DNA of 64,000 nucleotides from assembly GCF_002019695.1 (NCBI RefSeq), contig NZ_KV917376.1, forward strand, positions 792,369 to 856,368, written 5' to 3'. Positions 8,990 to 33,095 of this stretch are shown here, piece by piece. Positions within the stretch are counted from its first letter, which is position 1. Each line of letters starts with the position of its first letter. The stretch is from Evansella clarkii (GTDB lineage Bacteria > Bacillota > Bacilli > Bacillales > Salisediminibacteriaceae). The position numbers and the translations under genes are program-made. Under the pieces are notes generated by a model. That model was not told the origin of the DNA. It saw only the letters and a list, made by a program, of their open reading frames with translations, and did not search any database.

Positions 8990-9535
8990 GGGCACGCGAG
9001 ACACTCTTGCGTTACCGCTCCCCTATTTTTTTCCCCGAGCGGGCATGCGAGACACTCTCGTGTTACCGCTTCCCTATTATTTTTCCCCAAGCGGGCACGC
9101 GAGACACTCTTGCGTTACCGCTCCCCTATTTTTTTCCCCGAGTGGGCATGCAAGAACCTCTTGCGTTACCGCTCTCTACTTTTTTTGCCCCGAGCGGGCA
9201 TGCAAAGCCCTCTTGCGTTACCGCTCTCTACTGATTTTTCCCCAAGCGGGCACGCGAGACACTCTTGCGTTACCGCTCTCCTATTTTTTTTCCCCGAGCG
9301 GGCATGCAAGGACCTCTTGCGTTACCGCTCCCCTATTTTTTTTTCCCGAGCGGGCATGCGAGACACTCTCGCGTTACCGCTCCCCCATTATTTTTCCTCA
9401 AGCGGGCACGCGAGACACTCTTGCGTTACCGCTCCCCTATTATTTTCCTCCAAGCGGGCACGCGAGACCTTCTTGCGTTACCGCTCCCCTATTATTTTCC
9501 TCCAAGCGGGCACGCAACACCCTCTCATCTTACCT
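8990..9535. repeat. Tandem 52-bp repeat array 1 (ten full units plus a decayed one)
   Basis: The box GGGCA starts at 8990, 9041, 9093, 9144, 9196, 9248, 9300, 9352, 9404, 9456 and 9508, so the pitch is 51-52 bp. Each unit reads GGGCAYGCRAGA-n-CTCTTGCGTTACCGCT, a quasi-palindrome, then a pyrimidine-rich tail with a run of T. Since 52 is not a multiple of 3, open frames across it are artefacts. The array fills the space between the convergent ATP-grasp and murJ genes. No unique spacers, so it is not CRISPR. Confidence 0.95.
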
Positions 9536-9640
9536 CAATCCTCTTCCAACTCAGACACACCATACCCTCCCTCCCCAACCACACAAAAAAGAGCATCCAA
9601 AAGCCAGAACCTGCCCCCGGATGCTCTCCTATATTCTAAA

Positions 9641-11164
9641 TTAACTTCGCTTTACCAGTCTTCTTTTAATTGCAGCCATTCCATTATCAAGGGCTTCCAC
9701 TTTCATAAAATACAACAGAACAAAATAGATAACAGCTGCCAGGAAAATTGTCAGCAGAAGAGCTGCTGCGAAAGCCAGCACACCAAGTAAATAATTGTAT
9801 AGATAGTAAGCTGCCAGCGCCATAACGGCAGAAGCAGCAACAATTTTACCAAAGGCCAGCCCCATTTTCCGGAACTGCAGTGATCCGATTCGTTTTCGCA
9901 AATTAAAGAAGAGGAGAATCGCGCAGAAGATTCCTGATATACTCGTTGCCAGTGCCAGGCCGTTGATTCCCATCACCGGAGCAAGGAGAAAGTTCAGTAC
10001 AATGTTCAATCCCATGGCAATGGCAGCATTAATCATCGGTGTCCTTGTGTCCTGAAGGGAGTAAAACGCCTGTGACAGCACGACCCGGAGCCCAGCTCCC
10101 AGCATACCGATCGAATAAAAGAAAAATGCTCCTGCTGTCATCACTAAAGCAGTACTGTCAAAAGCTCCTCTGCCGAAAAGAAGCCGTACTACCGGCTCGG
10201 CAAAAACCAGTGCCCCCGCTGTTGCGGGTATAGTCAAAAGTGCAACTCCAACTACCGACTGATGGAGCGCATATTTCATGCTGGCTGTATTTCCCTTAGA
10301 AGCCATCCTCGACAAAGAAGGGAACATCACTGTTGAGATGGACATGACAAACACACCATGAACAAAGTTAGTAAGCGTATGAGCGTAATTTAATGCCGAT
10401 ATACCCCCGATTGCCACCTGGGAGGCCAGTGTCCGGTCTACAAGCTTGTTGATCTGATGCACTGCAGACCCTAATATAACCGGAACCGCCAGGATTAACA
10501 TTCTCCGGAGATGTTCATCCTTTACATCAAATACCTTTTTGTACTTAAAGTCCTTCCGGTAAGAGAAAAACATAAGGATTACCCACTGGACAAACAGCGC
10601 TGCGACAAAACCGTATGGCAGTATCGCAGGTTCTCCCATTTCTGAGCTCACAACGATGGAAGCAATTACAATCAGGCTCATTGGAATACCAAGGAGATTC
10701 GGCACAGCAAAAAGCTTTTGATAATTTAAGTAAGCACTCAGCACCCGGATAAAAATGGTGAAATAAATACCTGCGAGAGTGACCCTTGTAAAATAAACAG
10801 CGGTGTCAAAGATCTCTCCCTCAAAGCCGCTGGCGAACAGCATCACTAACTGTTCAGCAAAAATCATTCCTAAACCGACTATCAATGTACTGAAAACGAG
10901 CAGAACATTGATTAAATTATTTGTGAACCTCAGAGCGTGCGCAGGGCCATTATTCTCTTCAATTCTGCTGTACATTGGTATGTAGCCGGTGGCAATCCCT
11001 CTGGCAACTACCCCGAAGATTACAACAGGAATCGTCAGAGCGATTAAGTATGCATCACTGATTCCTGAAGCACCGTAAAAGTATGCGAGGGTCACATCTC
11101 TTAAGAAACCTACTATTTTTGAAAGAAAAGTTAATATCATTAAAACGATAATTGCTTTTTTCAT
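9641..11164 (-). CDS. murJ: Lipid II flippase MurJ
   Basis: A 507-aa integral membrane protein of the MurJ/MviN family of the MOP superfamily, which flips the peptidoglycan precursor lipid II across the membrane. Hydrophobic segments run through the whole protein, consistent with 14 helices, and the N-terminal FLRDVTLAYFYGASGISDAYL motif is characteristic. The ATG at 11164 follows AGGAG by 6 bases. Many Bacillaceae carry more than one paralogue of this family (for example SpoVB-, YtgP- and YtgP-like proteins), so a role with another polyprenyl-linked substrate is possible. It is monocistronic, convergent with array 1. Confidence 0.85.
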   Translation of the reverse strand: MKKAIIVLMILTFLSKIVGFLRDVTLAYFYGASGISDAYLIALTIPVVIFGVVARGIATGYIPMYSRIEENNGPAHALRFTNNLINVLLVFSTLIVGLGMIFAEQLVMLFASGFEGEIFDTAVYFTRVTLAGIYFTIFIRVLSAYLNYQKLFAVPNLLGIPMSLIVIASIVVSSEMGEPAILPYGFVAALFVQWVILMFFSYRKDFKYKKVFDVKDEHLRRMLILAVPVILGSAVHQINKLVDRTLASQVAIGGISALNYAHTLTNFVHGVFVMSISTVMFPSLSRMASKGNTASMKYALHQSVVGVALLTIPATAGALVFAEPVVRLLFGRGAFDSTALVMTAGAFFFYSIGMLGAGLRVVLSQAFYSLQDTRTPMINAAIAMGLNIVLNFLLAPVMGINGLALATSISGIFCAILLFFNLRKRIGSLQFRKMGLAFGKIVAASAVMALAAYYLYNYLLGVLAFAAALLLTIFLAAVIYFVLLYFMKVEALDNGMAAIKRRLVKRS

Positions 11165-11320
11165 TAGAAACTCCTATGAATTTTAGCGGCTTTCTACAGT
11201 GTATCTGATAAGATTTCCTGTAAAAGGCCTTAATTTTCTTCATCTTCTGCTTATTATCTTATTATCAGCAGCGAGAAACAACTAAGAGCCTGCGTCATTA
11301 AGCTGCTGCCGCAAAGAATA

Positions 11321-11355
11321 AAACCGCAGACTCCCGTTAGAGAACCATGCGGTTT
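11321..11355 (-). terminator. Intrinsic terminator of the SnoaL-like gene
   Basis: AAACCGCA (11321-11328) pairs with TGCGGTTT (11348-11355). On the minus strand the stem is followed by TTTTATTCTTT, shortly after the stop codon at 11370. Confidence 0.75.
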
Positions 11356-11369
11356 GCCGCTTAATATCA

Positions 11370-11756
11370 TTAAATCTGGTTTTTTTTACTGGCGTCCAGA
11401 GTTACAGGGATATAATAGCTCGTTATCTCTGTAATTTTCCCCGGCTCGAATTTATCAAACTTGTAAACATCACAAAAAGCTGTTGTTTCCACGTTTCCGG
11501 CCGGGCATATAATTTTCATAATCCCATTACAGGAAGCCGTAAGTTCATGAGTGATAATATGTGAAATCTTTAATTCAATTATATTTTCTTCTTTCATCTT
11601 TCTGAATTCTTCCATTACTTCTTTTTTTCCGCGAAATGTTTCCTTCCCCATCAATGTCCAGATTACGTCTTCTATCATATGATCTGTTATAAATTCTGCA
11701 TCATTAACTGTAAAGGCCTTGTTGAACTTCTCAATAAACTCCCGTTTTTGCGGCAT
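11370..11756 (-). CDS. SnoaL-like / NTF2-fold small protein
   Basis: A 128-aa protein with the pattern of the NTF2-like SnoaL fold: an N-terminal helix pair (EFIEKFNKAFTVNDAEFITDHM), the VIWTLMGKETFRGKKEV stretch, and then alternating beta strands ending near TSYYIPV. Such proteins are small alpha+beta barrels used as enzymes, ligand binders or accessory domains; no catalytic assignment is possible here. A ribosome binding site AGGAGG lies before the ATG at 11756. It is single and has its own terminator. Confidence 0.7.
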   Translation of the reverse strand: MPQKREFIEKFNKAFTVNDAEFITDHMIEDVIWTLMGKETFRGKKEVMEEFRKMKEENIIELKISHIITHELTASCNGIMKIICPAGNVETTAFCDVYKFDKFEPGKITEITSYYIPVTLDASKKNQI

Positions 11757-11894
11757 AAGCCGGGACCTCCTTTATCTGTCTCTCTAACATAATCTTAACA
11801 CTGCCGAAACGCCGTTTATATCTTTTTTTGTTCAAAGAGAGATTCATATTACTGATGAAACTGCAGAAACTAAAGAAAAAAGGAGGCGCAGTGT

Positions 11895-12206
11895 ATGAGT
11901 GCAAAAGATTTTGAAGGCATCTACAATGAGTACAAAGCCCAGAGCGTCGACGTTACGAACTCTGCATTTGAAAATATGGAGAAAGGTAAGGAAGCAATTG
12001 CAGCTGTAAGGAAAAATGAAGATGGAGATTTAATCGCATTTAAAACAAATACAGGGAGGGAGCTTGATTATGTGACGGCTCTAAATGAAGCGAAGGCTGG
12101 GAAGCTAGCTCATATAGATGTTTTCCATAAGTATGGCAGAGATATTATCCGCAGTGAGCCAGACGGCATCCGCGAAAATAATCTGGATGAACTTCCTGAG
12201 TTTTAA
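11895..12206 (+). CDS. DUF3892 domain protein
   Basis: A 103-aa protein whose second half matches the DUF3892 pattern: AAVRKNEDGDLIAFKTNTGR, then DYVTALNEAKAGK, and IRSEPDG...NNLDELP at the end. In Bacilli this short domain of unknown function usually forms the whole protein. AAAAAAGGAGGCG before the ATG is a strong ribosome binding site. The N-terminal 35 residues are charged and helical. Its presence beside the next small gene suggests general stress or housekeeping, but no function is known. Confidence 0.8.
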   Translation: MSAKDFEGIYNEYKAQSVDVTNSAFENMEKGKEAIAAVRKNEDGDLIAFKTNTGRELDYVTALNEAKAGKLAHIDVFHKYGRDIIRSEPDGIRENNLDELPEF

Positions 12207-12329
12207 GGTACAATAGAAGTGCAGACTATTTTTAACAACACACCCTTTTTAAATCTGTATATGGAGGGTACAAGGATGAATAGCATAGTAAGTATGTGAA
12301 TATGTACAGTTTGCAGAAGGGGTGAAAAA

Positions 12330-12512
12330 ATGAAAAAAAATCTGTATACAACAGGGGACCAAGTACAAATCAGAGCTACCGGGGAAACTGTGACTATCAT
12401 GAAAGCCCAATACGTAAAAAATATGAAAAGGTATTCCTACACGGTGAACCAGTATCCAAATACCTTTTACTTTGAAGAAGAGCTTGCTGATTTGCCTGAA
12501 GGTGAAGAATAG
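12330..12512 (+). CDS. Small conserved-looking protein (60 aa), SH3-like
   Basis: A 60-aa basic-then-acidic protein starting with AAGGGGTG 6-7 bases upstream of the ATG. The sequence alternates short beta strands (YTTGDQVQIRATGETVTIMK, then YSYTVNQYPNTFYFEEEL), a pattern typical of small SH3-like barrels such as those in Bacillus YodN-like or KOW-type proteins. I do not recognise a defined family. A bidirectional terminator follows. Confidence 0.6.
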   Translation: MKKNLYTTGDQVQIRATGETVTIMKAQYVKNMKRYSYTVNQYPNTFYFEEELADLPEGEE

Positions 12513-12528
12513 AAAATCAGTGATACAG

Positions 12529-12566
12529 AAAAAACAGCGGGGACTCCTCTGAGCCTCCGCTGTTTT
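12529..12566. terminator. Bidirectional terminator
   Basis: AAAACAGCGG (12531-12540) pairs with CCGCTGTTTT (12557-12566), with A residues before and T residues after. It serves the plus-strand 60-aa gene and, on the other strand, the small minus-strand gene ending at 12576. Confidence 0.8.
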
Positions 12567-12575
12567 GTGCTGCAT

Positions 12576-12692
12576 CTAATTTGTAAAGTATGGAACAAGA
12601 TAATTTATAATCTGATAGCCGCAATAAACCAGGACAGCTGCAACAAGAATGATTAAAGCCCACACCAGTAACCTGACAGCTATCCTTCCCAT
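12576..12692 (-). CDS. Putative 38-aa single-span membrane peptide
   Basis: An ATG at 12692 is preceded by GGTGATC, which pairs with the extreme 3' end of 16S rRNA, 4 bases away. The peptide MGRIAVRLLVWALIILVAAV... has two N-terminal arginines, one hydrophobic helix and a short tail ending YFTN, so it would sit in the membrane with its N-terminus inside. The bidirectional terminator just after its stop supports transcription on this strand. No family recognised. Confidence 0.45.
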   Translation of the reverse strand: MGRIAVRLLVWALIILVAAVLVYCGYQIINYLVPYFTN

Positions 12693-12929
12693 TTCAGATC
12701 ACCATCCCATATTTATTTCCATCATCCCATACCCCCGCACTTGCAGCACCCTTTCTTAATACTATTTTGAAAAAAGAAGATGTATTACTGTTTTTCAGAA
12801 GGATATTTAACACCGCACTGTTTAAAAACAACAGAGTGCTTAAAATACATGATCAAATTGTCCCGAAAAAAAGGATTACGGAACTTTAGCAGGAATATAT
12901 AATCATCTGAACAGACAGGGGAGTTTGCT

Positions 12930-13397
12930 ATGGTTTTATTGAATGGTGTATCTGGCTCCAATGGCCCTGATTCGAGGTCCGACGGTTTGTTATTTCAGAA
13001 GATATGTTATCTTGCCGCCGCTGAAGCCCAAGGGAGAGTCTTGTCTTTTCATGAGACGGAGGTTGCCAGAAATTATTATAAAGCTGAAGTTGAACTCTCC
13101 GGTAAGTCTGTATATAACCTGCTCAACAGCACTTACCCATTTGTCGCCTTTGCTGAGTTTGTTGATCTCACAAAACTGGTGTTCATTGATAACGACTGGC
13201 TTAGCAGAAAGTTCAAGCCATATTTTCAGGTGTTATCATCTGCTGAGCTCCATGAACCCATCCGCACCAGAGAGGGCAAAGGAAAAATTATTCTGTTAAA
13301 TAACAATGAATTAAATGATGCAGAATTAAACATGCTGGAATACTACCGGTCTGTTACTTCCATTGTCGGGGATATTGTATTTAATTTCTGGGATTAG
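12930..13397 (+). CDS. Hypothetical protein (155 aa)
   Basis: A soluble 155-aa protein with no recognised domain. An AGGGGAG-like ribosome binding site lies about 9 bases before the ATG. The sequence is mixed alpha/beta, with LLFQKICYLAAAEAQGRVLSFHETEVARNYY near the start and KIILLNNNELNDAELNMLEYY near the end; the latter resembles a helical recognition element but no regulator family is evident. Its 3' end overlaps the convergent membrane gene by 17 bp, which implies that transcription of one may interfere with the other. The 237 bp upstream contain no other feature except a possible promoter. Confidence 0.6.
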   Translation: MVLLNGVSGSNGPDSRSDGLLFQKICYLAAAEAQGRVLSFHETEVARNYYKAEVELSGKSVYNLLNSTYPFVAFAEFVDLTKLVFIDNDWLSRKFKPYFQVLSSAELHEPIRTREGKGKIILLNNNELNDAELNMLEYYRSVTSIVGDIVFNFWD

Positions 13398-14058
13398 TTC
13401 CAGCACTGCCCGCACGCCTGCTCTGAAACAATTGCGTGGCAAACAGAGACAGAATCAGAACTAACTCGGTTATATTTCCTGCGGCCTTACTCTCAAAGGG
13501 AATAGAAAGAACGCCAACAACTCCCATGCCAATTAATCCTGCAATGAGCCATATCCACCTTTGCCTTCTCCAGAGGATAATGGAGGCAATTAGTATGGAG
13601 AGTGAGACTGCCATCATCATGAGAGGGCCACCGGAGGAACTCACCCGTTTATAGCTTAAAACACCTTGCTGCCATACTGGTTCAAGGGACAGTCCGAAAA
13701 GAGGGAGGGCTTCGATAATAATAATGACTCCTGTTAAAAAGACCACCCCGTATGTTCCCAATCTATTCAACGCCCATGTCACCCCTGCTGCCCTTAAAGT
13801 TTGCCAGGCAAAAAGGATGAGTAACGGGGTAAAAAAAACGTGCATCCAGTATCTCAGGAAATTTAACGATTCTAATAGCGTTCCTTCTCCAATATAACGC
13901 CCGGTGGTAAGTATGCCGTTATCATAAAGTAAAGCTGCGATAACAATTAACAGAAAGGCAGAAAATATATGCCAGCGGTCCTTAATTGCAAAGTATATTC
14001 CAGCTGCTAATAACAGAGCATACATAACCGACAGGGAAAAATAAATAACTGTATCCAT
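13381..14058 (-). CDS. Hypothetical polytopic membrane protein (225 aa)
   Basis: A 225-aa protein with about seven hydrophobic segments, for example residues 5-24, 30-46, 70-90, 100-120, 145-160, 168-185 and 190-210, separated by short loops. No conserved active-site motif was recognised. The ATG at 14058 follows a GAAGCGAG-type ribosome binding site. A repeated structured element (14181-14280) lies about 120 bp upstream, and the same element lies upstream of another small minus-strand membrane gene at 45893-46198. Its end overlaps the convergent 155-aa gene. Confidence 0.65.
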   Translation of the reverse strand: MDTVIYFSLSVMYALLLAAGIYFAIKDRWHIFSAFLLIVIAALLYDNGILTTGRYIGEGTLLESLNFLRYWMHVFFTPLLILFAWQTLRAAGVTWALNRLGTYGVVFLTGVIIIIEALPLFGLSLEPVWQQGVLSYKRVSSSGGPLMMMAVSLSILIASIILWRRQRWIWLIAGLIGMGVVGVLSIPFESKAAGNITELVLILSLFATQLFQSRRAGSAGTNPRN

Positions 14059-14285: not shown

Positions 14286-14295
14286 GTTACCAGGA

Positions 14296-14628: not shown

Positions 14629-14683
14629 GTCCCTGCTAGTAAGAAATTACCCGATACCTGCTGTTTTGGTAAGTTCCCTTAAA

Positions 14684-17545
14684 TTACAATCCCCTTCGTT
14701 TTTTCGCTTCTAGTAGCCGTTTCATTCGATCCTGAGAACTTTCTTCCGTACTGGCAGTGTCTTTACCCTTTGTCTTTTCAGAGGAATACTGTAAACCTGC
14801 GGCTCCGGCCTTCTTCCCAAGCCCCTTTTTCCCGCCTGTCCCAGGATTTTCCGTTGAAATTACTTTCTCAGCTTCACTCCTCATCCGGCTCTCTGTTCCC
14901 TTCCCTGCCTTCCTACTAAACGAAGCAGCTTTCCGGCTCTTAAGCTCTCCAATTGTCCCTGCCCTCCCAGTTGTTCCTTCTTCTGCCCAGGCCCCTGAGT
15001 TCCCTCGCAATCTGGCGAAAGAAAACCTTGGAACACCAAATCTTCTGAGACCCACCTCTGTGAAAAACAACAGGAAGGCGGCTAAAATAAGCCAGTGAGC
15101 GATACTTTGTTTTGCAGACGGCGGCTCAGCAAGCGGACGGAAAGCTTCCGAAGCTTCACCGATTACCGCCCCATCTCCCCGGTCTGCCAGTTCCTCCAAA
15201 AACCGATCGTTCAATGGCTTTAGTTCGTACTCCTCGGGATAGGAAACAGTTACCCCAGTCTGAAACAGAGGAGTCTGTTCTTCATTCCGCTCTGTAAGCT
15301 GCACGAAATGCATTCCCTCATTACCTTCAAAACTCACTTCGTATTCCCCTGGTTTAGTCATACGCACACTGGCTTCCAGTTCGCTGCCCCGCTCATCAAC
15401 CACTGCGGCATCCAGCGGTTTCGAGGTAGTTTCTTCAGCGGTAAATGTGAGGACACTAGTCATCCCGTCACGGCGCTGAGCCAGCTCGAATGGATCCTGT
15501 GTTCCAGCTGAGAATGTCCAGGTGACGATATCATTCCAGAGGGGAGCCCAATTTTCCCAGGCTGCCCAGTCACCAGACCACGCCCCATCCACATCGGATG
15601 TCCAGGCGACCGTTTTTCCAAGCCCGTACTGCCACCTGGAAAGAACGGGATCTTCTTTTTCGCTCGTTAACACATTTGTCGCCCGACCCTTTGGCGTTGT
15701 TGCGATATAAGCATTCATCCGGGGCACCCCGTTCATAAAAGCAGGTGTCCAGTCTGAGGTGCCTGAACTAATCTTTGGGTAAAAAGGATTGTCCTCGATA
15801 TATGTCCTCGTCGCAAGCATCGTCTCTCTTGAGAGAATACTCGGCATAGTTGATTCATCGAAAACAGCGTAAAACCGCCCTGCACCATACTCAGCAAGCT
15901 CTTCAAGAAGATAGTGGTCTGCATCCGCCCCAACTGCAACGGCAGAAAGAGTAATATTATCCTCTAATCCCCCCTCGATTAAAGCTTTGTAGTCTCCGGT
16001 TTCCGGCGACTCCCCGTCTGTAAGGAGAATAATGTGCCGCCGCTGAAGTTCATGGGTCTCAAGCTGCCGGTACCCTTCTGCAAGACCCGGGTAAATATCT
16101 GTTCCTCCTCCTGCCGTAATCCCGAGGATTTTTTCCGTTACCTCTCCGATATCCTCCATTGGAGCTGTCTCCACAACCGGCCAGATCTGATCATCAAAGG
16201 CGACAACCCCGACTGTGTCCCCTTCCCGAAGAAGTTCAACAGATCTTGCTGCAGCTTCCTTCGCAAGCTCCAGCCGTTGGCCCATCATACTTCCTGACCT
16301 GTCAATAACAAATACCATTCCAAGGGACGGAAGCTCTTCTTCACTCTTGATCTCCATTTCAACAGGGAGAATTGTTTCGATCGGGGTGTCCTTGTAGCCG
16401 CCAAGTGCAAAACTGTTCATTCCCCCTGTCATAATAAAACCTACTCCAAAATCACGGACAGCTTTTTCAATAATCTCCATTTGTTGAGGGGATATACTCA
16501 TTGCTGGTACATTGCTGAAAATGATAGATTCATACTGCAAATAATTGTTAAGTTCACCAGGGAGAAAATCAGCCGACACCCTTTCCACATCAAGCTCACT
16601 GGAAACAAGTGCATCATAAAGCGCATTTCCCGCCTGATATCTGTCTCCTTCCACAAGCAGCACTTTTGCTGAACCTCCCACGATGGTCATTGCAGAAAGC
16701 TGATTATTTTCCGGAATACTGTCTTCGTCGGTAAAAACCTCTGCGCGAATGTGATGTGTCCCGCTTTCTGTAACAGGATGGGTAAAGCTGAAAGAATTCG
16801 TCCCCTCCTTCAGCTCCACTACCTCCTCCAGGACCGCTTCTTGATTAATCATCACCTGGAGCAAAGCAGCTGCTTCTTCCGTACTTTCCACCGTAACGGA
16901 AATTCTGGCCTTCTCCCCTTTAAACATCTGCCGGGGCACCTGCAGATCCTTCATGGATACATCCTTCATTCCCTGAGAAAAGAACGGTACTGTGTCCACA
17001 GTGATCCCTTGTTCCCTTACAATACTCGCCTGATGCAATGCATCTCCTGCCGTTTCATTCCCATCACTCATAATGACAATTCTGCCGCCGCCTTTTTCAG
17101 CTAAAAGGCTCGTACTGAGCTGCAGTGCCGATTCCAGGTTTGTATAATCTCCGCTGATCCTGCTCCAGTCACTGCTGAAGCTGTTCTCTGAACTGATCAT
17201 CCGTTCAATGACAGCATCCCTGCCAACAGAAACAATTGCAAAGGCATCCTCTTCCCCTTTCGCTGAAACAGCCTCCCTTATAAAAGAAGTCATTTCATTG
17301 TTCGCCCTGGTGTTTGAGTCAGAACGATCCATAATAAAAACGGTGTGAACTTCTTTTGCCGTAAATACAAGGTTTGGCATTGCCAATGCAACAGCCAGCA
17401 AGGTAAAAATAAGTATTCTCAGTGGAACAATAACAAGTTTTTCCCTTGAAGAAAGATGAAGCTTTGACCGTACAAACACTATTACAGCAATCAATACCGG
17501 TATAAATAACAATAAAGCGAGAGGCTGTTCAAGTTCGAATCCCAC
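14684..17545 (-). CDS. Large membrane protein with two von Willebrand A domains and a GATase-like domain
   Basis: A 953-aa protein and the last gene of the operon. Two N-terminal membrane helices (about 6-24 and 38-58) precede a first VWA domain with the metal site DRSDS, a beta-sandwich region, a class I glutamine-amidotransferase-like domain around 290-390 (KVLLVEGDRYQ, IIFSNVPA), and a second VWA domain with DRSGSM around 410. A further helix near 825-845 (IAHWLILAAFLLFF) is followed by a basic cytoplasmic tail. The amidotransferase-like domain has no evident catalytic cysteine. Two MIDAS sites suggest metal-dependent protein binding outside the membrane, probably with the overlapping 603-aa partner (17-bp overlap). 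Function is unknown in this context. Confidence 0.85.
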   Translation of the reverse strand: MGFELEQPLALLLFIPVLIAVIVFVRSKLHLSSREKLVIVPLRILIFTLLAVALAMPNLVFTAKEVHTVFIMDRSDSNTRANNEMTSFIREAVSAKGEEDAFAIVSVGRDAVIERMISSENSFSSDWSRISGDYTNLESALQLSTSLLAEKGGGRIVIMSDGNETAGDALHQASIVREQGITVDTVPFFSQGMKDVSMKDLQVPRQMFKGEKARISVTVESTEEAAALLQVMINQEAVLEEVVELKEGTNSFSFTHPVTESGTHHIRAEVFTDEDSIPENNQLSAMTIVGGSAKVLLVEGDRYQAGNALYDALVSSELDVERVSADFLPGELNNYLQYESIIFSNVPAMSISPQQMEIIEKAVRDFGVGFIMTGGMNSFALGGYKDTPIETILPVEMEIKSEEELPSLGMVFVIDRSGSMMGQRLELAKEAAARSVELLREGDTVGVVAFDDQIWPVVETAPMEDIGEVTEKILGITAGGGTDIYPGLAEGYRQLETHELQRRHIILLTDGESPETGDYKALIEGGLEDNITLSAVAVGADADHYLLEELAEYGAGRFYAVFDESTMPSILSRETMLATRTYIEDNPFYPKISSGTSDWTPAFMNGVPRMNAYIATTPKGRATNVLTSEKEDPVLSRWQYGLGKTVAWTSDVDGAWSGDWAAWENWAPLWNDIVTWTFSAGTQDPFELAQRRDGMTSVLTFTAEETTSKPLDAAVVDERGSELEASVRMTKPGEYEVSFEGNEGMHFVQLTERNEEQTPLFQTGVTVSYPEEYELKPLNDRFLEELADRGDGAVIGEASEAFRPLAEPPSAKQSIAHWLILAAFLLFFTEVGLRRFGVPRFSFARLRGNSGAWAEEGTTGRAGTIGELKSRKAASFSRKAGKGTESRMRSEAEKVISTENPGTGGKKGLGKKAGAAGLQYSSEKTKGKDTASTEESSQDRMKRLLEAKKRRGL

Positions 17546-23744: not shown

Positions 23745-24673
23745 GCTTTTTCCACCTCTTTCGTAATTTCCATAAAAACATCTTCCAGGTTTTTCTCTAT
23801 TGGGCGGAAACTCAGCAGAGGGATATCATCCAGAACAGCTTTTTTCAGAAGAACCTGCTGTTTTTCATCTGACCCTTTATAGCCGAACTGAATTGTCCCA
23901 TTCGGTCCCTTCTGCACGTTAATTACGTCCGGATCGTCTTCAAAAAACCTCACTGATTTCTCCAGCTCCCTTGAAACCGTGACAACAATTTCTTTCTGTT
24001 GCTGCAGTTGTTCCTGAATGTCGGAAACAGATCCAGTAGCAATGAGCTTCCCATGGTCGATAACGCCAATCTCATCGCACATTTCTGCGAGCTCCGGGAG
24101 AATATGGGAAGAAATAATAATTGTTTTTCCCATCGTCTTTAACTCTTTAAGGATTTCTCTCATCTCTATCCTCGCCCGCGGATCAAGCCCTGAGGCAGGT
24201 TCATCAAGTATAAGCACCTTTGGATCGTGGATAAGTGACCTGGCCAGACAAAGCCGCTGCTTCATTCCTCTCGAAAGAAGATCAACATAGGAATCATGCT
24301 TATGAGACAGATTGACCAGCTCCAGAAGCTGTGGAATTACCTCGGAACGTTCTCTCTGTGAGAGGCCGTAGCTGCTCCCGTAAAAATCAAGGTACTCGCT
24401 CGCTTTAAACTGATCGTATACTCCGAAGAAATCAGGCATATAGCCGATAACCCGCCTTACTTTTTCCGGATCCTTCGTCACTTCAAGTCCATTAATATAA
24501 GCCGTTCCGTAAGTTGGAGCCATCAAGGTGGCTAATATCTGAAATGTCGTGGATTTCCCTGCACCGTTCTGTCCTACAAAACCGAAGACCGTCCCTTCAG
24601 AGACAGTGAGGTTCAAGTCATCCAGGGCAGTAAATGCACCGTATTTTTTTGTTAAATTAACTGTCTCAATCAC
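23741..24673 (-). CDS. ABC transporter ATP-binding protein
   Basis: A 310-aa ATPase with Walker A GQNGAGKST near residue 36, signature LLSRGMKQRLCLARSL, Walker B VLILDEPASGLD and a C-terminal extension typical of ABC-2 exporters (PIEKNLEDVFMEIT). The signature begins LSRG rather than LSGG, a variant seen in this subfamily. It overlaps the upstream exported-protein gene by 8 bp and the permease gene by 4 bp. It supplies energy for the ABC-2 pump of this operon, in the arrangement also seen in the gliding-type GldA/GldF/GldG systems. Confidence 0.92.
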   Translation of the reverse strand: MIETVNLTKKYGAFTALDDLNLTVSEGTVFGFVGQNGAGKSTTFQILATLMAPTYGTAYINGLEVTKDPEKVRRVIGYMPDFFGVYDQFKASEYLDFYGSSYGLSQRERSEVIPQLLELVNLSHKHDSYVDLLSRGMKQRLCLARSLIHDPKVLILDEPASGLDPRARIEMREILKELKTMGKTIIISSHILPELAEMCDEIGVIDHGKLIATGSVSDIQEQLQQQKEIVVTVSRELEKSVRFFEDDPDVINVQKGPNGTIQFGYKGSDEKQQVLLKKAVLDDIPLLSFRPIEKNLEDVFMEITKEVEKA

Positions 24674-27053
24674 GTTTCATTTCTCCTTTCAGGGACAACT
24701 CAGGAACGAAAACTTCATCAGGCATCTCGCCTTTTGAAATTTGGATACGAATCTGGCCATATTCCTCAATATATTTCTCAGGGCTCTTAAACGTATTGTT
24801 CTCATCAAGGGAATCGAAGGTTTCTGTTTCAACGTTAAATACCTCATACGTAAAACCTCCGCTGTGGCGGATTTTAATTCCAAGTTCCGAGAACGCGGCC
24901 TTATTTTCCAGAAGTTCAACAGGCACTGTATAACTGAACTCATACTTCCCTGCCGGGGCGTAAACCGTCCGTTCTCCAGGATGCAATTCAAAATCGTAAG
25001 ATCCAATATGCCCGTCTACAGAATAAAAGTATGGTAAAAAATCTTCCCCCTTAAGCTCAAATGGACCTGATAAGTGGCCTTTAAAATCAAGCGGATGAAC
25101 AATGAGGCCCGTTCGTTCTGTCAGAGCCTCCCTGCCTGAAATGCTGCTGTTCAGTAACTGATCACCTGTAAAAGCGGCCAAAACAGGCTTTCCTTTTTCA
25201 AACATGTCAAATTCATGCATCGTGCGCATTAAATCTTCTTTTTTCCGCTCCGCCAGCTCCATATCATTCGAATAATTATAATAGTAGTCAGCCACGGGGG
25301 CCTGCAGCAGCGATCCTGTCAGCTCTATATTTACTTCGATTGTTTCACCAGGTCCTAACGAGCCTAATGATTCTTTCTGCCTTCCTGACAGGAAAACAAG
25401 GTCATCGATCCGTAATTCTGTTGGATTCGTAACCGTGCCTGAAATTTCCTGTTCGCCGCTAATTTCCAGATCCGTTTCAAGCTCACCTATATCAATCTTT
25501 GAAATCGGTCCGGAAGCATTTCGTATAGACCAGTATTCAACGTCCTTAAATAGGATATCCAGCTGATCCCCTTGCTGCCTGATCCCTCCGTCCGGCTCAT
25601 CAGGTGTACTGCCCATTGAATAATTACTTCGGATTGGAAATGCTGCAAATCCTGCTGTTGCCACATTAAGTTCGTAGTCCCCGCTATTATTGCTTAAGAC
25701 AGAAACACTTCCGTAACCCCGGCCTTCGCCTTGTTCATCGACAGTTACCACGAGAGATTCATTAATCTGCGGCTGGGCGATTCTGTCCTTGCCGCCAAAC
25801 CCGAATATTCCGGCGGATATTAAGAGAGATATAGCAGGAAGGATCCACCACGAGTGCTCCCGCTTATCTATTTTTTTCAACAGGAAGTAAATGACCGGGA
25901 AAATTATAAGTACGTAAACTATGAAAATCGTAACGAGCACTGAAAACGGCAGAAAGGATGACGGGAATAAACTTGTCGTTTCTGCCAGACCCCAGTTTAA
26001 TCTGTCATACACAGACTCATAGTCCATATAGTTTGGGGTTATCACTGACTGGAATGTTTCCGTCCAGTAAGATTCAGCCCCATCCCACTCTGCAAATGAT
26101 TTAGCCCCTGGGGAGAACGCCAGCTGCACTACCTGCCCGCTTCCATGGAAGGCCCTTGCCGCAACTGGGGTGCCTGATTCAGCCCTCTGCAGGATATTAG
26201 CTCCGTCTGAAACAGCTCCGGCTGTCAGATCTATTGTTTTAGCAGGGTATTTACGGTCACCTTTATTAAAAAAATCAGCATCTTCTTTTTTCGTATTCAT
26301 CTCTAATCCCATAGGCAGGAGTACTGCAAGACTGTCAAGCTTCTGCTGTAATCCCGGGTCAGCCCCTATAACGAGTGTGCCTCCAAAATCCACCCAGGCT
26401 TCCACCGCATCCTGCTGCTCCGGGCTCAGTGCCTCCGCCACAGAATACTGATCGATGATGATTGTATTAAACATCGTTAACCCAGCGGAATCGTTCGGAA
26501 GCTGCTTAGGATCGACCGGAACTATACGCATGGAATTCCCATGGGCAGCCCGGGCGTTTTTCAGGTAATTAAACGCATCGGGGTTATCTGTTAACAGCCC
26601 GACAACAATATCCTCCTCGTTTATATGGGCCGGGGTTAATTTTGTCTGTCCCCCAAGTTTTACTTTTTTCCCATTTTGCCAGCCGCCTTCATAAAAGTGG
26701 ATATCGTCAGGTACTGGTCCGGGACCGCCATAATGCATATTACTGTACCCAGGAAGGCTCAGCAGGAATGTTTTTTCACTGTTTGCCGGCAGGTCTGCCT
26801 GTGTGATGACCATGCCATTATTCCAGTTGTACCCTGGCATGACCGAGATTGCCAGTTCCCCTGAAATATCCTCGCCATTGTTCTTCAGGGTGACAGCAAT
26901 TGGGAAACCCTGGTTGGCCTTTATCAAGTTATTAAAGCCTACCTCCGTTGAGACTGTAATACGCTCTTCTTCATCAGCTGACACTGCATAGAACGGCAGT
27001 GCGAAACTTAATAGAAAAAGAGTTAAAGCTGCTATTGATAATTTTCTGATCAT
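24666..27053 (-). CDS. Large exported protein with GATase-like and membrane domains (first operon gene)
   Basis: A 795-aa protein with a signal peptide ending near YAVSADEE, an N-terminal beta domain, a class I GATase-like fold around 150-330 (IVVGLLTDNPDAF, FGGTLVIGADPG), two membrane helices near 375-397 and 405-420, and a long beta-rich extracytoplasmic C-terminal half. It overlaps the ABC ATPase gene by 8 bp. The architecture loosely recalls GldG-like partners of ABC-2 permeases, but I do not recognise a named family. It opens the operon, with CAGGGGGAG before its ATG. Confidence 0.7.
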   Translation of the reverse strand: MIRKLSIAALTLFLLSFALPFYAVSADEEERITVSTEVGFNNLIKANQGFPIAVTLKNNGEDISGELAISVMPGYNWNNGMVITQADLPANSEKTFLLSLPGYSNMHYGGPGPVPDDIHFYEGGWQNGKKVKLGGQTKLTPAHINEEDIVVGLLTDNPDAFNYLKNARAAHGNSMRIVPVDPKQLPNDSAGLTMFNTIIIDQYSVAEALSPEQQDAVEAWVDFGGTLVIGADPGLQQKLDSLAVLLPMGLEMNTKKEDADFFNKGDRKYPAKTIDLTAGAVSDGANILQRAESGTPVAARAFHGSGQVVQLAFSPGAKSFAEWDGAESYWTETFQSVITPNYMDYESVYDRLNWGLAETTSLFPSSFLPFSVLVTIFIVYVLIIFPVIYFLLKKIDKREHSWWILPAISLLISAGIFGFGGKDRIAQPQINESLVVTVDEQGEGRGYGSVSVLSNNSGDYELNVATAGFAAFPIRSNYSMGSTPDEPDGGIRQQGDQLDILFKDVEYWSIRNASGPISKIDIGELETDLEISGEQEISGTVTNPTELRIDDLVFLSGRQKESLGSLGPGETIEVNIELTGSLLQAPVADYYYNYSNDMELAERKKEDLMRTMHEFDMFEKGKPVLAAFTGDQLLNSSISGREALTERTGLIVHPLDFKGHLSGPFELKGEDFLPYFYSVDGHIGSYDFELHPGERTVYAPAGKYEFSYTVPVELLENKAAFSELGIKIRHSGGFTYEVFNVETETFDSLDENNTFKSPEKYIEEYGQIRIQISKGEMPDEVFVPELSLKGEMKRD

Positions 27054-27927: not shown

Positions 27928-28096
27928 TCCTGGCACCTCACTTTCCATAGTTAGGTTTTCAAATTAACTGGAAAAAATGTATGTATGATAAAAATAATTT
28001 CCCTGCTCTTCCATCAAAGCATTTTAGTGCCCCGCAACTCCTGGTCCAGAAACCGTGCACCTGCTCAGGTAACAGCGTAATATTTCTTTATAAATC

Positions 28097-28125
28097 TGAA
28101 ACCTTCACCCATTGCTTTCCGTATA
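28097..28125 (+). promoter_or_regulatory. Sigma-W-like promoter of htpX
   Basis: TGAAAC (28097-28102), a 17-bp spacer and CGTATA (28120-28125) match the ECF sigma-W consensus TGAAAC-N16-CGTA. A similar element precedes pspA and the TPM/EzrA-like gene. The start codon is at 28240, leaving a leader of about 105 nt. Not verified experimentally. Confidence 0.7.
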
Positions 28126-28239
28126 AAACAATTGGCAGAAAAAATCTGGTTAGTTGTCTCTTTTACAGGGACAATAACCTGACCAGCCTGCGAAAACGTG
28201 ATAAAATATATTACTATACTATAGATATGGAGGACTACG

Positions 28240-29157
28240 ATGGGGAAAAGAGTTTTATTTTTTATTTTGACGAACATTCTCGTTATGACCACGATTGTTA
28301 TTGTCTGGGGGCTTATCGTTTCATTCACAGACATTGGAGGCACATTTGATACCGGCGGCGCTGGTCTGGGAATAGATTTAGTTGCTCTTGGTGTATTCAG
28401 TCTTTTAGTTGGTTTTACTGGTTCCTTTATCTCTCTTGCCATGTCCAGGTGGATGGCAAAGAAGATGATGAAAGTAAAAGTGCTCGACCCGAACGACAAC
28501 TTAACTTCACAGGAGCGTGCAGTAGTTGAAAAGGTGCACCGCCTTTCCCGTGCTGCAGGGCTTCCTCACATGCCGGAAGTCGGGATTTACCAGTCACCTG
28601 AAGTAAACGCATTTGCAACAGGACCTTCGAAAAAGCGTTCCCTCGTGGCTGTATCATCAGGCCTGCTTAATTCCATGGATGATGATGCCGTCGAAGGTGT
28701 TATTGCACACGAGGTTGCTCACGTTGCCAACGGTGACATGGTTACAATGACACTGCTTCAGGGAGTAGTTAACACCTTTGTTGTTTTCTTCTCCAGAATA
28801 GCTGCAATCCTCGTATCCAGACTCGTGCGTTCTGAAATGCAGACTGTCGTACGGTTCGCAGCAATTATCATTTTCCAGATCCTGTTCTCAATTCTTGGAA
28901 GTATCGTGGTTATGGCTTTCTCCCGTTACCGTGAATTCCATGCGGACCGTGGCGGAGCCGACCTGGCAGGCCGTGATAAAATGGCACACGCCCTTCGTTC
29001 TCTTAAAAGACATGTTGACCGTGCGAATGTTAACAATGACCGCACTGACGACGCAGCAATCGCTACAATGAAAATCAGCGGAAAAGGCGGAGTAGCCAAA
29101 CTGTTCGCCTCCCACCCTGATCTCGACGAGCGGATTGCCCGCCTTGAAGAGCGTTAA
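28240..29157 (+). CDS. htpX: HtpX membrane protease
   Basis: A 305-aa zinc metalloprotease of the HtpX/M48 family, which removes damaged membrane proteins. Two N-terminal helices (about 8-30 and 45-68) precede the zinc site HEVAH near residue 160, two further helices (about 175-195 and 205-225), and the third zinc ligand in [12 protein letters not shown]. The start is supported by GGAGG 6 bases upstream. B. subtilis HtpX (YkrL) responds to envelope stress; the sigma-W-like promoter above suggests the same here. A clean terminator follows, so it is monocistronic. Confidence 0.95.
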
Positions 29158-29168
29158 CAGAAAAAATT

Positions 29169-29203
29169 AAGCAACTGCCCATTTATACAGGCAGTTGCTT
29201 TTT
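29169..29203 (+). terminator. Terminator of htpX
   Basis: AAGCAACTGCC (29169-29179) pairs with GGCAGTTGCTT (29190-29200), then TTT. Confidence 0.85.
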
Positions 29204-29353
29204 ACATAGTTAAAAACCAGGTGTTTCCGAAAATACAAAGTGATCGTGTGAACCCTGTAAAAAGAATCACGATCCGCCAGTTTTATTTTCGTTTAATATT
29301 TTTCATCACAATATGGCTTTCCGGGACACTTGGCATATCTACCATGCTGAAGC

Positions 29354-30538
29354 TTAGATCCTGCTCCGGAATCTCGTAGAAAGTTTGTTAACAAGATGAT
29401 CGAGGCTCACCTTCATTATATCCATAGTGATCCATTCCCCGGCACAGCGATGCCCAATTTCAAATTCTCCTCCTCCTTGAGGAATAAAGTCAAATGGGCT
29501 TCCACTCCATTCCGCAAACCGCTCCGGTTCAAAACGATCAGGATTCTCCCAGTATTCCGGATGATGATTTGTCCCGTATAAATCCAGCAAAGTAAGTGTG
29601 TCTTCTTCAAATTCATACCCTCTCCAGCTGAAATTATCTTTCACTCGTGCCGCAGTAAACGGAAAGAAAGGATAAAAACGGCGTACTTCCTGCATAAACC
29701 AATGCAGCCGCTCACTGTCATTATTCTTTAGCTTATCTGCCTCTTCTTTATTAAAATAGACGGCATGCGCCGTAAAACAAATATAAACAGTAATCGCAAC
29801 CATAGGACGCAGTAAGTTCAGAATCTCTACCGCCACAATACTTTTATCGAGGAGATTTCCATCGAGATCCCGATGCCAGGAAAATGTATAAAGAGGCTTA
29901 TTTTCCGGCGGATTCACTTTTCCTTCTCTGACCTTTTCCACAAGTTCTTCAATCCAGTCTTCTCCCCTTGAGCGGGCTATCCTTCCTTTCCAGTGTGCCG
30001 GCCCAATAGCTGCCGAGGCTTCAAACATGTTGCTTAACTGATCTGCCAGATCTTCCACCTCATCATCTTCCAGCGGTACCCCTGTCCATTCGCAGGCAAC
30101 CTTCGTAAGTATTTTTTTGGCTTCTTCATACAAAACAATTTCGTCCTTTGTTTCCCACCTGGCAGCAAACAAATCCCATTGTTTTTCCGTAAGATCAATA
30201 ATTTCCTGCAGACTTTCTTTAGACATCACAGACATAAACATTTCTTTCCGATGCTTATGAGCCTCACCATCAAGGCCCTGGACGCCCCCTTCGCCAAAGA
30301 GTGTTTTTTTCACCCTCCCAGGCGCTGCTTCACTACGCTCAAATTTACTATTATCATAGAATATTTCAGCAGCATCCTTTCCAGTTAAGCAAATTGCCTT
30401 CTCACCGAGCAGCCTTGTTTCAAATACATCTGTCTGATATCTGTGCTGCCGGTTTAAAATATACTCATACCCTTCTTTTAACAGCTTCAGGCTATTGTCC
30501 AGCCCTTCGTCCTTCGGCAGGTTTCTTTCGCCTCCCAT
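29354..30538 (-). CDS. cypC: CYP152-type cytochrome P450 fatty-acid peroxygenase
   Basis: A 394-aa cytochrome P450 close to B. subtilis CypC (YbdT, P450BSbeta), which uses hydrogen peroxide to hydroxylate long-chain fatty acids at the alpha or beta carbon. The heme loop reads [19 protein letters not shown], with axial Cys365. The EVRRFYPF block contains the Arg and Pro that in CYP152 bind the fatty-acid carboxylate and replace the usual acid-alcohol pair. The protein is about 20 residues shorter than CypC, mostly at the C-terminus. GGAGG lies 10 bases before the ATG. It needs no redox partner, and none is encoded here. Confidence 0.92.
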
Positions 30539-30653
30539 ATACTAAATCCCTCCATTTTCTGGATATTAGTGTGTCATTGCACTAGTAAACGAATTTTGCT
30601 GTCCCTAAACGTCAATTTTTTACACCCTGGTATGAAATAATCAGTATCATATC

Positions 30654-30682
30654 TTGACTAGCATAGTGGGAATATATAATAT
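30654..30682 (+). promoter_or_regulatory. Sigma-A promoter of dbpA
   Basis: TTGACT (30654-30659) and TAATAT (30677-30682) are separated by 17 bp; an overlapping TATAAT lies at 30675-30680. The start codon is 40 bp downstream. Confidence 0.6.
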
Positions 30683-30722
30683 AAGCTCAATAAACTATCA
30701 GGAAAAATGAGGTTGTTAATAG

Positions 30723-32174
30723 ATGAATACAAGTAATTTTAAAGATTTTAAATTAAGCGGGGAAATCATCGAAGCACTGGAACAGCTGCATTATAAAAAA
30801 CCAACCGAAGTACAGCAAAAAGTGATACCTGTTTTTCTCCAGAAAAAAGATCTGATTGTAAAATCTCAGACAGGCACTGGCAAAACAGCTTCCTTCGGTA
30901 TTCCTCTCTGTGAACTGGCAGAATGGGAAGAGAACAGGCCCCGGGCACTCGTACTTACACCAACAAGGGAGCTCGCCGCTCAGGTCAAAGAGGACATCAC
31001 TCATATCGGCAGGTATAAGCGGATCAAAGCAGCAGCCATTTACGGGAAAGAGCCGTTCGACAGGCAAAAACTCGAATTAAAGCAGAAAAATCATGTAGTG
31101 GTGGGCACACCTGGCCGTACCCTTGACCATATTCAGAAAGGGACGCTGCCAGTGGATAAGATCGAATACCTCGTAATTGATGAAGCTGATGAGATGCTGA
31201 ATATGGGCTTCATCGACCAGGTGGAAGCAATTATAAATGAGCTGCCGGATGGCAGAATGACCGCTGTTTTTTCCGCAACTATACCCGAAGATGTGCAGAA
31301 GCTCTGCGGTAGATACATGACCGATCCTCAGGAGGTGGAAATTGCCGGTACAGGAGTAACAACGGAAAAAATCAGCCACGAACTACTTGAAGTCATGGAG
31401 GAAAATAAGTTTTCTCTGCTAAAAGATATAACCGTTGCTGAGAATCCCGACAGCTGTATCATTTTCTGCAACACTCAGGAAAAAGTGGACAAACTGTTCA
31501 GCCAGCTGAAACGCGCAGGTTACCCGTGTGAAAAGCTGCACGGCGGCCTCGTTCAAAAAGACAGATTCTCTGTTATGAATGCCTTTAAACAAGGAAATTT
31601 CCGTTATTTAGCAGCTACAGATGTGGCTGCCCGGGGAATTGACGTGGAGAACATTTCCCTGGTTGTTAATTACGATACTCCTATGGAAAAAGAGAGTTAT
31701 GTACATCGTACCGGCAGAACGGGCCGTGCTGGCAACACTGGAAAAGCAATTACGTTCGCAACGCCTCGGGACATTAGATTTGTAGAGGAAATCCAGGAAT
31801 ACATCGGCTTTTCGATTCCGGTCAGGGAGGCACCCGCTCAAGAAGAAGTATCAGCAAATAAGGATTCCTTTAATCAGAAAATCAGTACAAAAGCTCCAGA
31901 GAAAAAAGACAAAAGTGCAGCAGTTAATAAAAATATAATGAAACTCTATTTCAACGGCGGCAAGAAAAAGAAGCTCCGGGCAGTCGACTTCGTTGGCACC
32001 ATAACGAGTATTCCAGGGGTTACAGGCGATGACATCGGGATTATAACCATTCAGGAATCTGCTACTTATGTTGAGATCCTCAACGGAAAGGGTTCCCTGG
32101 TTCTTCAGGAAATGAAGGACAAAACGATAAAAGGTAAACAACTGAAGGTTCATAAAGCTAAAACGAGGAAATAA
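30723..32174 (+). CDS. dbpA: DEAD-box RNA helicase DbpA (YxiN type)
   Basis: A 483-aa DEAD-box helicase. All motifs are present: Q motif ([11 protein letters not shown]... PTEVQQ), Walker [13 protein letters not shown] in [12 protein letters not shown], and [10 protein letters not shown]. The C-terminal 75 residues ([20 protein letters not shown]... to KHKA) form the DbpA/YxiN RNA-binding domain, which targets 23S rRNA hairpin 92 in ribosome assembly. No conventional terminator was found after the stop; the gene runs into array 2. Single gene with its own promoter. Confidence 0.94.
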
Positions 32175-32361
32175 AGGGGTGTGCATATCGGCAATAATCT
32201 GGGCAAAGTAGGAACACCTTGTCTAAGTCTCTGTCTCTGCTGGCATCTCTGCGGGGGCTGTTGGGGTATCTTGTCTTCTTAAGTCTTATCATTAGAGGAT
32301 AAGAGAGGGAGGGGGAAATCCGTCGCCTTTCGTTCCCTCAGTTGATGGGATTCCCTTCCTC
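32175..32361. other. Spacer after dbpA without a clear terminator
   Basis: Only a 7-bp stem TCTTATC/GATAAGA (about 32285-32305) without a T-run is seen. Otherwise nothing identified before array 2. Confidence 0.4.
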
Positions 32362-33095
32362 AGATACCGCAAGAGCCTCTTGCATCCCTTGAGCAGTAAC
32401 CTTTCCCATTCTCAAGTACCGCAAGAGCCTCTTGCATCCCTTGAGCAGCAATCTCTTCCCTTCTCATGTACCGCAAGAACCTCTTGCATCCCTTGAACAG
32501 CAACCTTTCCCCTTCCTCATGTACCGCAAGAGCCTCTTGCATCCCTTGAGCAGCAACCTTTCCCTTCCTCAAGTACCGCAAGAGCCTCTTGCATCCCTTG
32601 AGCAGTAACCTTTCCCTTCCTCAAGTACCGCAAGAGCCTCTTGCATCCCTTGAGCAGTAACCTTTCCCATTCTCAAGTACCGCAAGAGCCTCTTGCATCC
32701 CTTGAACAGCAACCTTTCCCATTCTCAATTCCCGCAAGAGCCTCTTGCATCCCTTGAGCAGTATCCTTTCCCCTTCTCAAGTACCGCAAGAGCGTCTTGC
32801 ATCCCTTGAGCAGTATCCTTTCCCCTTCTCAAGTACCGCAAGAGCCTCTTGCATCCCTTGAGCAGTATCCTTTCCCCTTCTCAAGTACCGCAAGAGCCTC
32901 TTGCATCCCTTGAGCAGTATCCTTTCCCATTCTCAAGTACCGCAAGAGCCTCTTGCATCCCTTGACCAGCAACCTTTCCCATTCTCAATTCCCGCAAGAG
33001 CCTCTTGCATCCCTTGAGAAGTAAGCTTTCTCCTTCTCAAATAGCGCAAGACTCTCTTGCATCCCTTGTACACCAATGTTGTTCCTATTCAAGCA
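32362..33095. repeat. Tandem 52-bp repeat array 2 (14 units plus decayed ends)
   Basis: CCGC starts at 32367, 32419, 32471, 32524, 32576, 32628, 32680, 32732, 32784, 32836, 32888, 32940 and 32992, then decayed at 33044 and 33096, a pitch of 52 bp with one 53. Each unit has the core CCGCAAGAGCCTCTTGCA, which contains the perfect palindrome GCAAGAG-C-CTCTTGC, then TCCCTTGAGCAG and a pyrimidine-rich tail. Read in reverse, GGGATGCAAGAG-CTCTTGCGG aligns with GGGCATGCAAGA-CTCTTGCG of array 1. It fills most of the gap between convergent dbpA and wrbA. Further decayed pieces continue to about 33220. Confidence 0.95.

Follow-up and report, generated by a model that had tools for sequence, protein, structure and literature searches.

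Intergenic minisatellites, or variable-number tandem repeats (VNTRs), such as the loci of multiple-locus VNTR analysis (MLVA) and the mycobacterial interspersed repetitive units (MIRUs), consist of tandem units of tens of base pairs that vary in copy number and are homogenised within an array. Their unit lengths vary freely. Palindromic units that are dispersed, and tandemly arranged, outside genes are found in enterobacteria as repetitive extragenic palindromic (REP) elements and bacterial interspersed mosaic elements (BIMEs), which keep their sequence while their spacing varies. Here we describe intergenic arrays with a unit of about 52 bp in a 64,000-nucleotide stretch of the Evansella clarkii genome (contig NZ_KV917376.1, positions 792,369 to 856,368; hereafter the window) and in related genomes, in which, in contrast to REP, the spacing is kept and the sequence varies. 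The nearest known kind is the intergenic minisatellites, with a constraint on pitch added.

As in VNTRs, the units of the arrays run head to tail and their copy number differs between relatives. Unlike VNTRs, the arrays are pinned at 51 or 52 bp or at other whole numbers of helical turns, often contain long inverted repeats, are numerous, and are strand-polar in two species. Dispersed palindromic units in tandem outside genes, as in REP elements, are found for all three families (A, B and C) described below. Dimeric-looking sites in helical phase recall operator- or parS-like arrays, and leading-strand polarity, with GAGAAGGG in some arrays, recalls FtsK-orienting polar sequences (KOPS) and SpoIIIE recognition sequences (SRS); here, however, there are many families, no common neighbouring gene, and many tandem units instead of single sites. 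By eye we recognised no consensus of parS, Noc or Ter in the arrays, no search for them having been made. Eukaryotic satellite DNA with nucleosome-length monomers is similar in its conserved monomer length, sequence turnover, species-specific families and concerted evolution, but the present arrays are bacterial, short and dispersed, and there is no known protein particle of 52-bp length. Clustered regularly interspaced short palindromic repeat (CRISPR) arrays also combine a palindromic repeat and a spacer at fixed pitch; here, in contrast, the spacer repeats within the array, and the repeat families of different arrays of one genome are unrelated.

Since the sequences differ completely between families while the spacing stays near an integral multiple of the helical turn, most often five, our results suggest that these cells contain a reader of spacing along the double helix. 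We know of no described family with such a whole-turn length constraint. The titles and abstract openings that we searched, part of them under Bacteroidota names, contained no description of such arrays; the MLVA, satellite and short tandem repeat work among them was unlike ours, and absence from such a search is weak evidence.

Results

We analysed the arrays of the window with Tandem Repeats Finder (TRF) and by core-to-core distances. Array 1 (8990..9535, plus strand; family B) has about 10 units of 52 bp, each made of GAGCGGGCAYGCRAG-N5-CTTGCGTTACCGCTC and a T-rich spacer, and was called by TRF at 8990-9515 with period 52, 10.2 copies, a score of 710 and 86% matches. Array 2 (32351..33095, minus strand; family A) has about 14 units of 52 bp, each made of CTCAAG-N4-GCAAG-N5-CTTGC-N4-CTTGAG and an array-specific spacer of ~17 bp (TRF: 32351-33068, period 52, 13.8 copies, score 1124, 92% matches). 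Common to both is the palindrome GCAAG-N5-CTTGC, flanked by outer arms that are CTCAAG/CTTGAG in array 2 and GAGCGG/CCGCTC in array 1. Cores follow each other in steps of 51-52 bp in array 1, with one step of 103 where the core of one unit falls below threshold, and of 52 bp, once 53, in array 2. Both methods thus confirm the initial annotation, which had described two 52-bp arrays with a common palindromic core. Outside the two arrays, a single site in the 64-kb window matched the core at ≥9 of 10 positions. The entire 52-bp unit recurs within each of arrays 1 and 2, so that the unique spacers of CRISPR arrays are not found here.

The initial annotation also placed the two arrays in opposite orientation. 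Because the core is palindromic and itself gives no direction, this part of the claim rests on the 4-bp linkers, whose order does differ between the arrays: GCAC-type on the left and TAAC-type on the right in array 1, TACC on the left and GGAT on the right in array 2. An open TTG frame (8889-9644) traverses array 1, which we nevertheless take as noncoding because 52 is not a multiple of 3. A third array, which the initial annotation had missed (58558..59068; family C), is made of palindromes GGACAAAT-N18-ATTTGTCC in steps of 51, 51 and 83 bp, which give a 185-bp higher-order repeat; TRF called it as periods 185 and 134.

We surveyed tandem arrays in other genomes, all sampling being within Bacillota. 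The host was placed in Bacillaceae, in the GTDB genus containing Evansella vedderi and Litchfieldia alkalitelluris; G000 denotes the genome of the window, G003 that of a sister species (amino-acid identity 98% at WrbA and 96% at MurJ), G002 is another member of the genus, and G007 is a further genome of the survey. In 400-kb samples of 20 stretches per genome, a period of 51 or 52 was found for 20 of the 27 arrays of G002, in six sequence clusters, and for 5 of 14 distinct arrays of G007, which had two more at 104. The G000 sample gave 2 of 9, one of them from the two stretches (2.605 and 3.29 Mb) that had been placed on known BLAST hits. Around 80 named WrbA loci (1.56 Mb), 14 of 41 arrays were at 51/52, three of them from two G002 loci and the others from Robertmurraya, Neobacillus, Rossellomorea, Litchfieldia salsa, Cohnella and several Bacillus-labelled strains. 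Other members of the genus, and other genera, have arrays with the 51/52-bp unit whose cores are unrelated and in many cases palindromic. The wider family and order (741 kb) yielded one noncoding 52-bp array and one coding-like 51-bp array among 16, and the phenomenon is therefore patchy.

Pooled over 3.83 Mb, 48 of the 54 noncoding arrays with units of 40-70 bp were at 51/52; as some stretches had been chosen for their arrays (the window, L083, L084 and the WrbA neighbourhoods), this count shows which periods occur, not how frequently. These noncoding arrays fall into 22 sequence clusters, 17 of them at 51/52 (one of the 17 also has a 60-bp member) and five at 47, 53, 54, 56 and 61, so that unit length is not unconstrained as it is in VNTRs. 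Among coding-like arrays only 3 of 26 were at 51/52, and one of the three is array 1, which the open-frame rule of this survey had removed. The pitch of about 52 bp is thus kept elsewhere, even in arrays of unrelated sequence.

Other spacings point to the helix in the same way. In a second class of arrays, short unrelated cores lie ~20.5 bp apart within an 82-bp higher-order repeat (L148:13488-13994 and 15239-15517; L084:5335-5743 and 9348-9529). The autocorrelation peak was at 82 bp for all three cores: TCGCAACAAG, with steps of 21 mixed with 19s, 20s and 40s, and TCAACGAAA and TCTCGAAA, with steps of 21 mixed with 40s or 41s. Family C steps in G000 and G003, among the matches listed, were 51, 133-135 and 184-187 bp, with a few of 49, 50 and 52 and one of 236. 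Spacings of 20.5-21 (two turns), 51/52, 82/83, ~134 and ~185 bp are all compatible with 10.2-10.5 bp per turn; indeed, 51/5 is 10.2, 52/5 is 10.4, 82/8 is 10.25, 83/8 is 10.38, 134/13 is 10.31 and 185/18 is 10.28. Steps that restore the phase after 63 or 102 bp are hard to account for unless phase matters. The argument of the initial annotation, that 52 bp is close to five turns, is reinforced by the independent 82-, 83-, 134- and 185-bp spacings. Two 21-bp arrays from two different bacterial families (L278:980-1248 and L096:304-380) have cores, GATTCACACA and TGTGAAACGGGC, that look similar by eye.

The families are dispersed over the genome. BLASTn with array 2 gave 46 matches in G000, at ~26 places (three of them short), and TRF found a 51- or 52-bp array at each of the 23 places that were fetched. 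An exact pattern of two family A cores at any pitch of 37-67 bp gave 176 forward matches in G000 and 247 in G003, against none for the reversed pattern in G000; the core is therefore enriched genome-wide, as the initial annotation had anticipated. Although 37-67 bp was allowed, the pitch was 50-53 bp among the matches listed. The remaining 58 relatives of the 60 searched, of which seven belong to the same genus, gave no match, and among 398 genomes of the class only the G000 matches and two genomes with one match each, at 42 bp, were seen, although diverged relatives could be overlooked because the patterns were exact. The family A core had no match in viral contigs, nor did array 2 match plasmids or phages.

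Families B and C are dispersed like family A. With 36-66 bp allowed, 51 of 54 matches of the family B pattern were at 52 bp and the rest at 51, 51 and 53. Family C had 94 forward matches in G000, 71 in G003 and none in the other seven members of the genus; likewise, the family of the array used as query from G002 was in none of the other eight members. A ATGAAGACT family, searched at 43-68 bp, had 10 matches, every one at 52 bp; they came from three genomes out of 299, all in a single genus of another bacterial family.

We compared 33 consensuses of family A arrays (24 from G000 and 9 from G003). Core and arm positions reached up to 2 bits, whereas 16 of the 17 spacer positions were at 0.0-0.5 bits. 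Two kinds of linker occur, one beginning with G (mostly GGAY) and the other with T, and both are present in 28 of the 33 arrays; the palindrome therefore conceals a polarity. Common ancestry may explain these mixed linkers. Among noncoding arrays of 51-53 bp from all families, 22 of 40 palindromes were matched by at most 1 of 100 shuffles, and where the palindrome was significant the inverted-repeat site was 27-44 bp long.

Orthologous sites showed that sequences turn over while the pitch stays. At one site, G003 has a family A 52-bp array (L092:1096-1816) and the orthologous intergene of G000 has an unrelated 52-bp array (L286:1002-1382); the flanks are 82% and 92% identical, and the best local score between the arrays, 15, was equalled by 50 of 300 shuffles. 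The place of array 1 is occupied in G003 by a long AATCAACGAAA array at ~20.5 bp; beside array 1 itself lie two AATCAACGAAA-type motif copies ~21-22 bp apart (8935..8967, minus strand). Eight pairs of G000 and G003 arrays keep both place and sequence, with 17/27, 8/9, 11/10, 17/11, 14/19, 14/16, 10/5 and 17/12 core units. An empty site that might reveal a target duplication was sought and not found among the counterparts: that of L085 holds a transposase and that of L092 the other array. This transposase, IS3-type by reading, is in locus L285 (G000:C1 2869578-2873176), where G003 has a family A array by an NFACT/FbpA-like gene (names read from the sequence).

We then considered the genes around the arrays, using a simple home-made gene caller for the orientation, flank and polarity counts. 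By gene annotation, convergent gene pairs flank both array 1 and array 2, in agreement with the initial annotation. Arrays without callable neighbours were dropped (three at edges and one overlap of 26 in G000, two at edges of 23 in G002). In G000, 12 of 22 arrays were in convergent and none of 22 in divergent gaps, whereas 29 of 197 intergenic gaps were convergent and 36 divergent (binomial p 1.6e-5 and 0.012). Two of the convergent arrays share a gap; counted by distinct gap, 11 of 21 were convergent and none of 21 divergent (p 5.9e-5 and 0.014). In G007, 2 of 7 were convergent, 2 co-directional and 3 divergent.

The leading strand was assigned from GC skew, masked for G003 loci, and for arrays close to the point where the skew changes sign, such as L024 at 3.50 Mb in G000, an assumed boundary was used. 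Purine skew favoured the leading strand in 23 of 27 G000 arrays (mean 0.16, flanks 0.04; sign test p 3e-4) and in 19 of 19 G003 arrays (mean 0.176, flanks 0.026; paired p 1.3e-4), two counts that are not independent because the arrays are partly orthologous. The purine-rich strand of array 2 is the minus strand, which is the leading strand at that place by GC skew. Leading-strand skew on both replication arms, as for KOPS and SRS, was found in G000, G003 and G007, and was not significant in G002. Family B is oriented in agreement with the GC-skew arm at all 10 G000 loci and at all 13 G003 loci with bracketed skew sign; two more G003 loci (2.146 and 4.493 Mb) lie in intervals of sign change and are compatible either way. 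Linker polarity of family A, compared by hand, had no relation to the arm. The octamer GAGAAGGG, which we take to be the B. subtilis SRS, was found 20:0 (leading:lagging) in G000 arrays and 15:0 in G003 arrays, against 12:3 in the 400-kb sample; it is carried by 6 of 27 G000 arrays (L002, L004, L005, L015, L016 and array 2) and by 3 of 19 G003 arrays.

Hairpin insulators, the other function put forward by the initial annotation, were weakened by tests of RNA structure. Single units fold better than shuffles (z on the two strands: array 2 -3.5/-2.2, array 1 -4.6/-1.4, G002 unit -4.9/-4.4). The outer stem of array 1, compared with the rest, was the only compensated stem. Outer pairs were Watson–Crick in 157 of 192 cases, against 159.9 in shuffles, with array 1 excluded, and in 163 of 198, against 157.5, with array 1 included. 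Linker pairs were at 42 of 132, against 66 in shuffles, and all 2000 shuffles were at least as high; inner pairs are uninformative on covariation because they are nearly invariant. Covariation thus did not support an RNA hairpin: over the 33 consensuses, pairing was not above shuffles in any of four pair sets without array 1. Wobble asymmetry in ten co-directional G000 arrays was also not in the direction expected of RNA (G-T 16 and A-C 18 with genes on plus, G-T 24 and A-C 14 on minus). Rfam 15 at the gathering threshold had no match in the window.

Discussion

Our preferred reading, which is tentative and which we stop short of calling probable, is that putative DNA-organising proteins bind the arrays as dimers, at sites set in helical phase. 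Each family would have a DNA-binding protein of its own, a dimer of which would occupy each inverted repeat, and the whole-turn spacing would set neighbouring dimers on one face of the helix, allowing polymerisation or bridging. Compact protein–DNA patches could result that contribute to chromosome organisation or insulation and whose polarity depends on the replication arm. Fast turnover of the cores might come from co-evolution, or mutual replacement, of the site families and the proteins that bind them, while the pitch requirement remains. Of the two kinds of binding protein named by the initial annotation, partition-type proteins are not supported, because the arrays occur all over the chromosome and their cores vary from species to species; taken as a whole, its interpretation is borne out in part, by core enrichment and pitch fully and by gene orientation only by half.

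A bolder form of the idea, which we consider rather unlikely, is that the arrays are a bacterial satellite DNA of many unrelated inverted-repeat families, each with numerous intergenic arrays, conserved only in helical phase (5, 2, 8, 13 and 18 turns) and oriented by arm, in which position on the helix is read rather than sequence. One candidate for the reader would be a family of architectural proteins that polymerise and whose specificity changes fast. Alternatively, dispersed arrays with common cores and unlike spacers might pair in phase, which would tie distant loci together.

Several observations count against binding by phased dimers. No binding protein for the cores was identified, and the many core families would require many binders or one reader of shape only. 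There is no common gene beside the arrays: the 14 flanking proteins of eight arrays comprise ordinary enzymes, transporters and a protein with a YetF-type domain. In G038, one 21-bp array runs at 84, 105 and 126 (10.5 per turn) without correction, and a second nearly so, at 104, 125 and 146. No clear palindrome against shuffles was found in 18 of the 40 arrays at 51-53 bp, including array 2, which was equalled by 15 of 100 shuffles; these arrays fail because the scoring demands an unbroken stem. In favour of phased binding, adjacent family A spacers have few indels for their substitutions (G000: 23 to 968; G003: 35 to 994) relative to 15 of 16 orthologous flanks (68 to 197; one flank at 75% identity was left out), but this depletion is only indicative because length differences at array edges inflate the flank indels. 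The link with gene orientation drawn by the initial annotation stands for G000 and fails in G002, where 4 convergent, 14 co-directional and 3 divergent of 21 arrays equal the background without a convergent preference. The leading-strand purine skew of G002 is weak (16 of 23, p 0.09; paired against flanks, p 0.1), and that of G007 (6 of 7, paired p 0.016) comes from only seven arrays.

The most serious alternative, which we rate only a little below our preferred reading, is that the arrays are neutral or selfish palindromic minisatellites, growing and contracting by slippage, unequal crossing-over and gene conversion, with a whole-turn pitch of mutational rather than functional origin (for example, through strand pairing with a bias towards in-phase duplication). 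Orthologous arrays vary in unit number (17 versus 27, and 10 versus 5, core units), one site was swapped for a 20.5-bp array and another for an unrelated 52-bp array, and at 2.23 Mb lies a relative of array 2 with 92% identity; the heterotypic linkers of 28 of the 33 arrays are compatible with spread from one ancestral unit. A duplication bias, however, poorly yields compensating steps (21s with 19s; 51, 51, 83), and arms conserved across arrays with unrelated spacers are not readily explained by it, nor is a leading-strand skew above that of the flanks. This skew, present in 42 of 46 G000 and G003 arrays, many of them orthologous pairs and thus not independent, is what would be expected if the arrays amplified a purine-rich leading-strand signal such as KOPS or the SRS of SpoIIIE, to be read by a DNA translocase or used in structuring the chromosome. 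The arm-dependent orientation of family B (23 of 23 bracketed loci in two species) and the restriction of GAGAAGGG to the leading strand within arrays agree with such polar signals. We nevertheless find them improbable, as GAGAAGGG is limited to 6 of 27 and 3 of 19 arrays, with copies within one array not independent, family A linker polarity is independent of arm, G002 skew is not significant, and the palindromes and the whole-turn pitch are left unexplained.

The whole-turn spacing favours double-stranded DNA over RNA, for which such a pitch is meaningless. Transcribed chains of 3' hairpins that terminate transcription, stabilise RNA or insulate convergent genes from each other would fit the folding of single units, the complementary replacement of the outer stem of array 1, and the absence of callable G000 arrays (0 of 22) from divergent gaps; we nonetheless think them very unlikely, given the lack of covariation without array 1, linker pairs below shuffles, a wobble asymmetry not as expected, no Rfam match in the window, and G002 arrays in three divergent gaps. 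We give least credence to elements of the BIME/REP kind, that is, dispersed palindromes moved by a REP-associated tyrosine transposase (RAYT) and binding gyrase or integration host factor (IHF). Short intergenic palindromes in dozens of dispersed copies, several families per genome and tandem arrays are all features of such elements, but a constant pitch with variable sequence is the reverse of REP/BIME, the arms of the units are long, and there was no transposase among the 14 flanking proteins scanned, the genome not having been searched for RAYT.

If the pitch is under selection, the arrays are a natural ruler experiment: one spacing, repeated across many unrelated sequences, would mean that a single face of the helix is acted on by a protein or process over hundreds of bp. 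They would then give testable access to an as yet undescribed system of nucleoid organisation in Bacillota. If its cause is mutational, bacterial tandem duplication would be helically phased, a new rule for the birth of minisatellites. In either case, the 51/52-bp spike is easily checked in any Bacillaceae genome.

Other features of the window

To the left of array 1 lies a gene for an ATP-grasp protein (7860..8882, plus strand), carbamoyl-phosphate-synthase-like and under the curated cut-off, and to its right one for a MurJ-type lipid II flippase (9641..11164, minus strand). Array 2 lies between the genes of a DEAD-box RNA helicase (30723..32174, plus strand), CshA/DbpA-like and under curated cut-offs, and of a WrbA-type NAD(P)H:quinone oxidoreductase (33296..33916, minus strand), which was the anchor for finding relatives. 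The open reading frames at 24666-27053 (795 aa) and 52830-54224 (464 aa) had no NCBIfam match at E 0.001. A 27-bp, glycine-rich-looking coding repeat at 45780-45841, within the open reading frame 43278-45854, appears ordinary.

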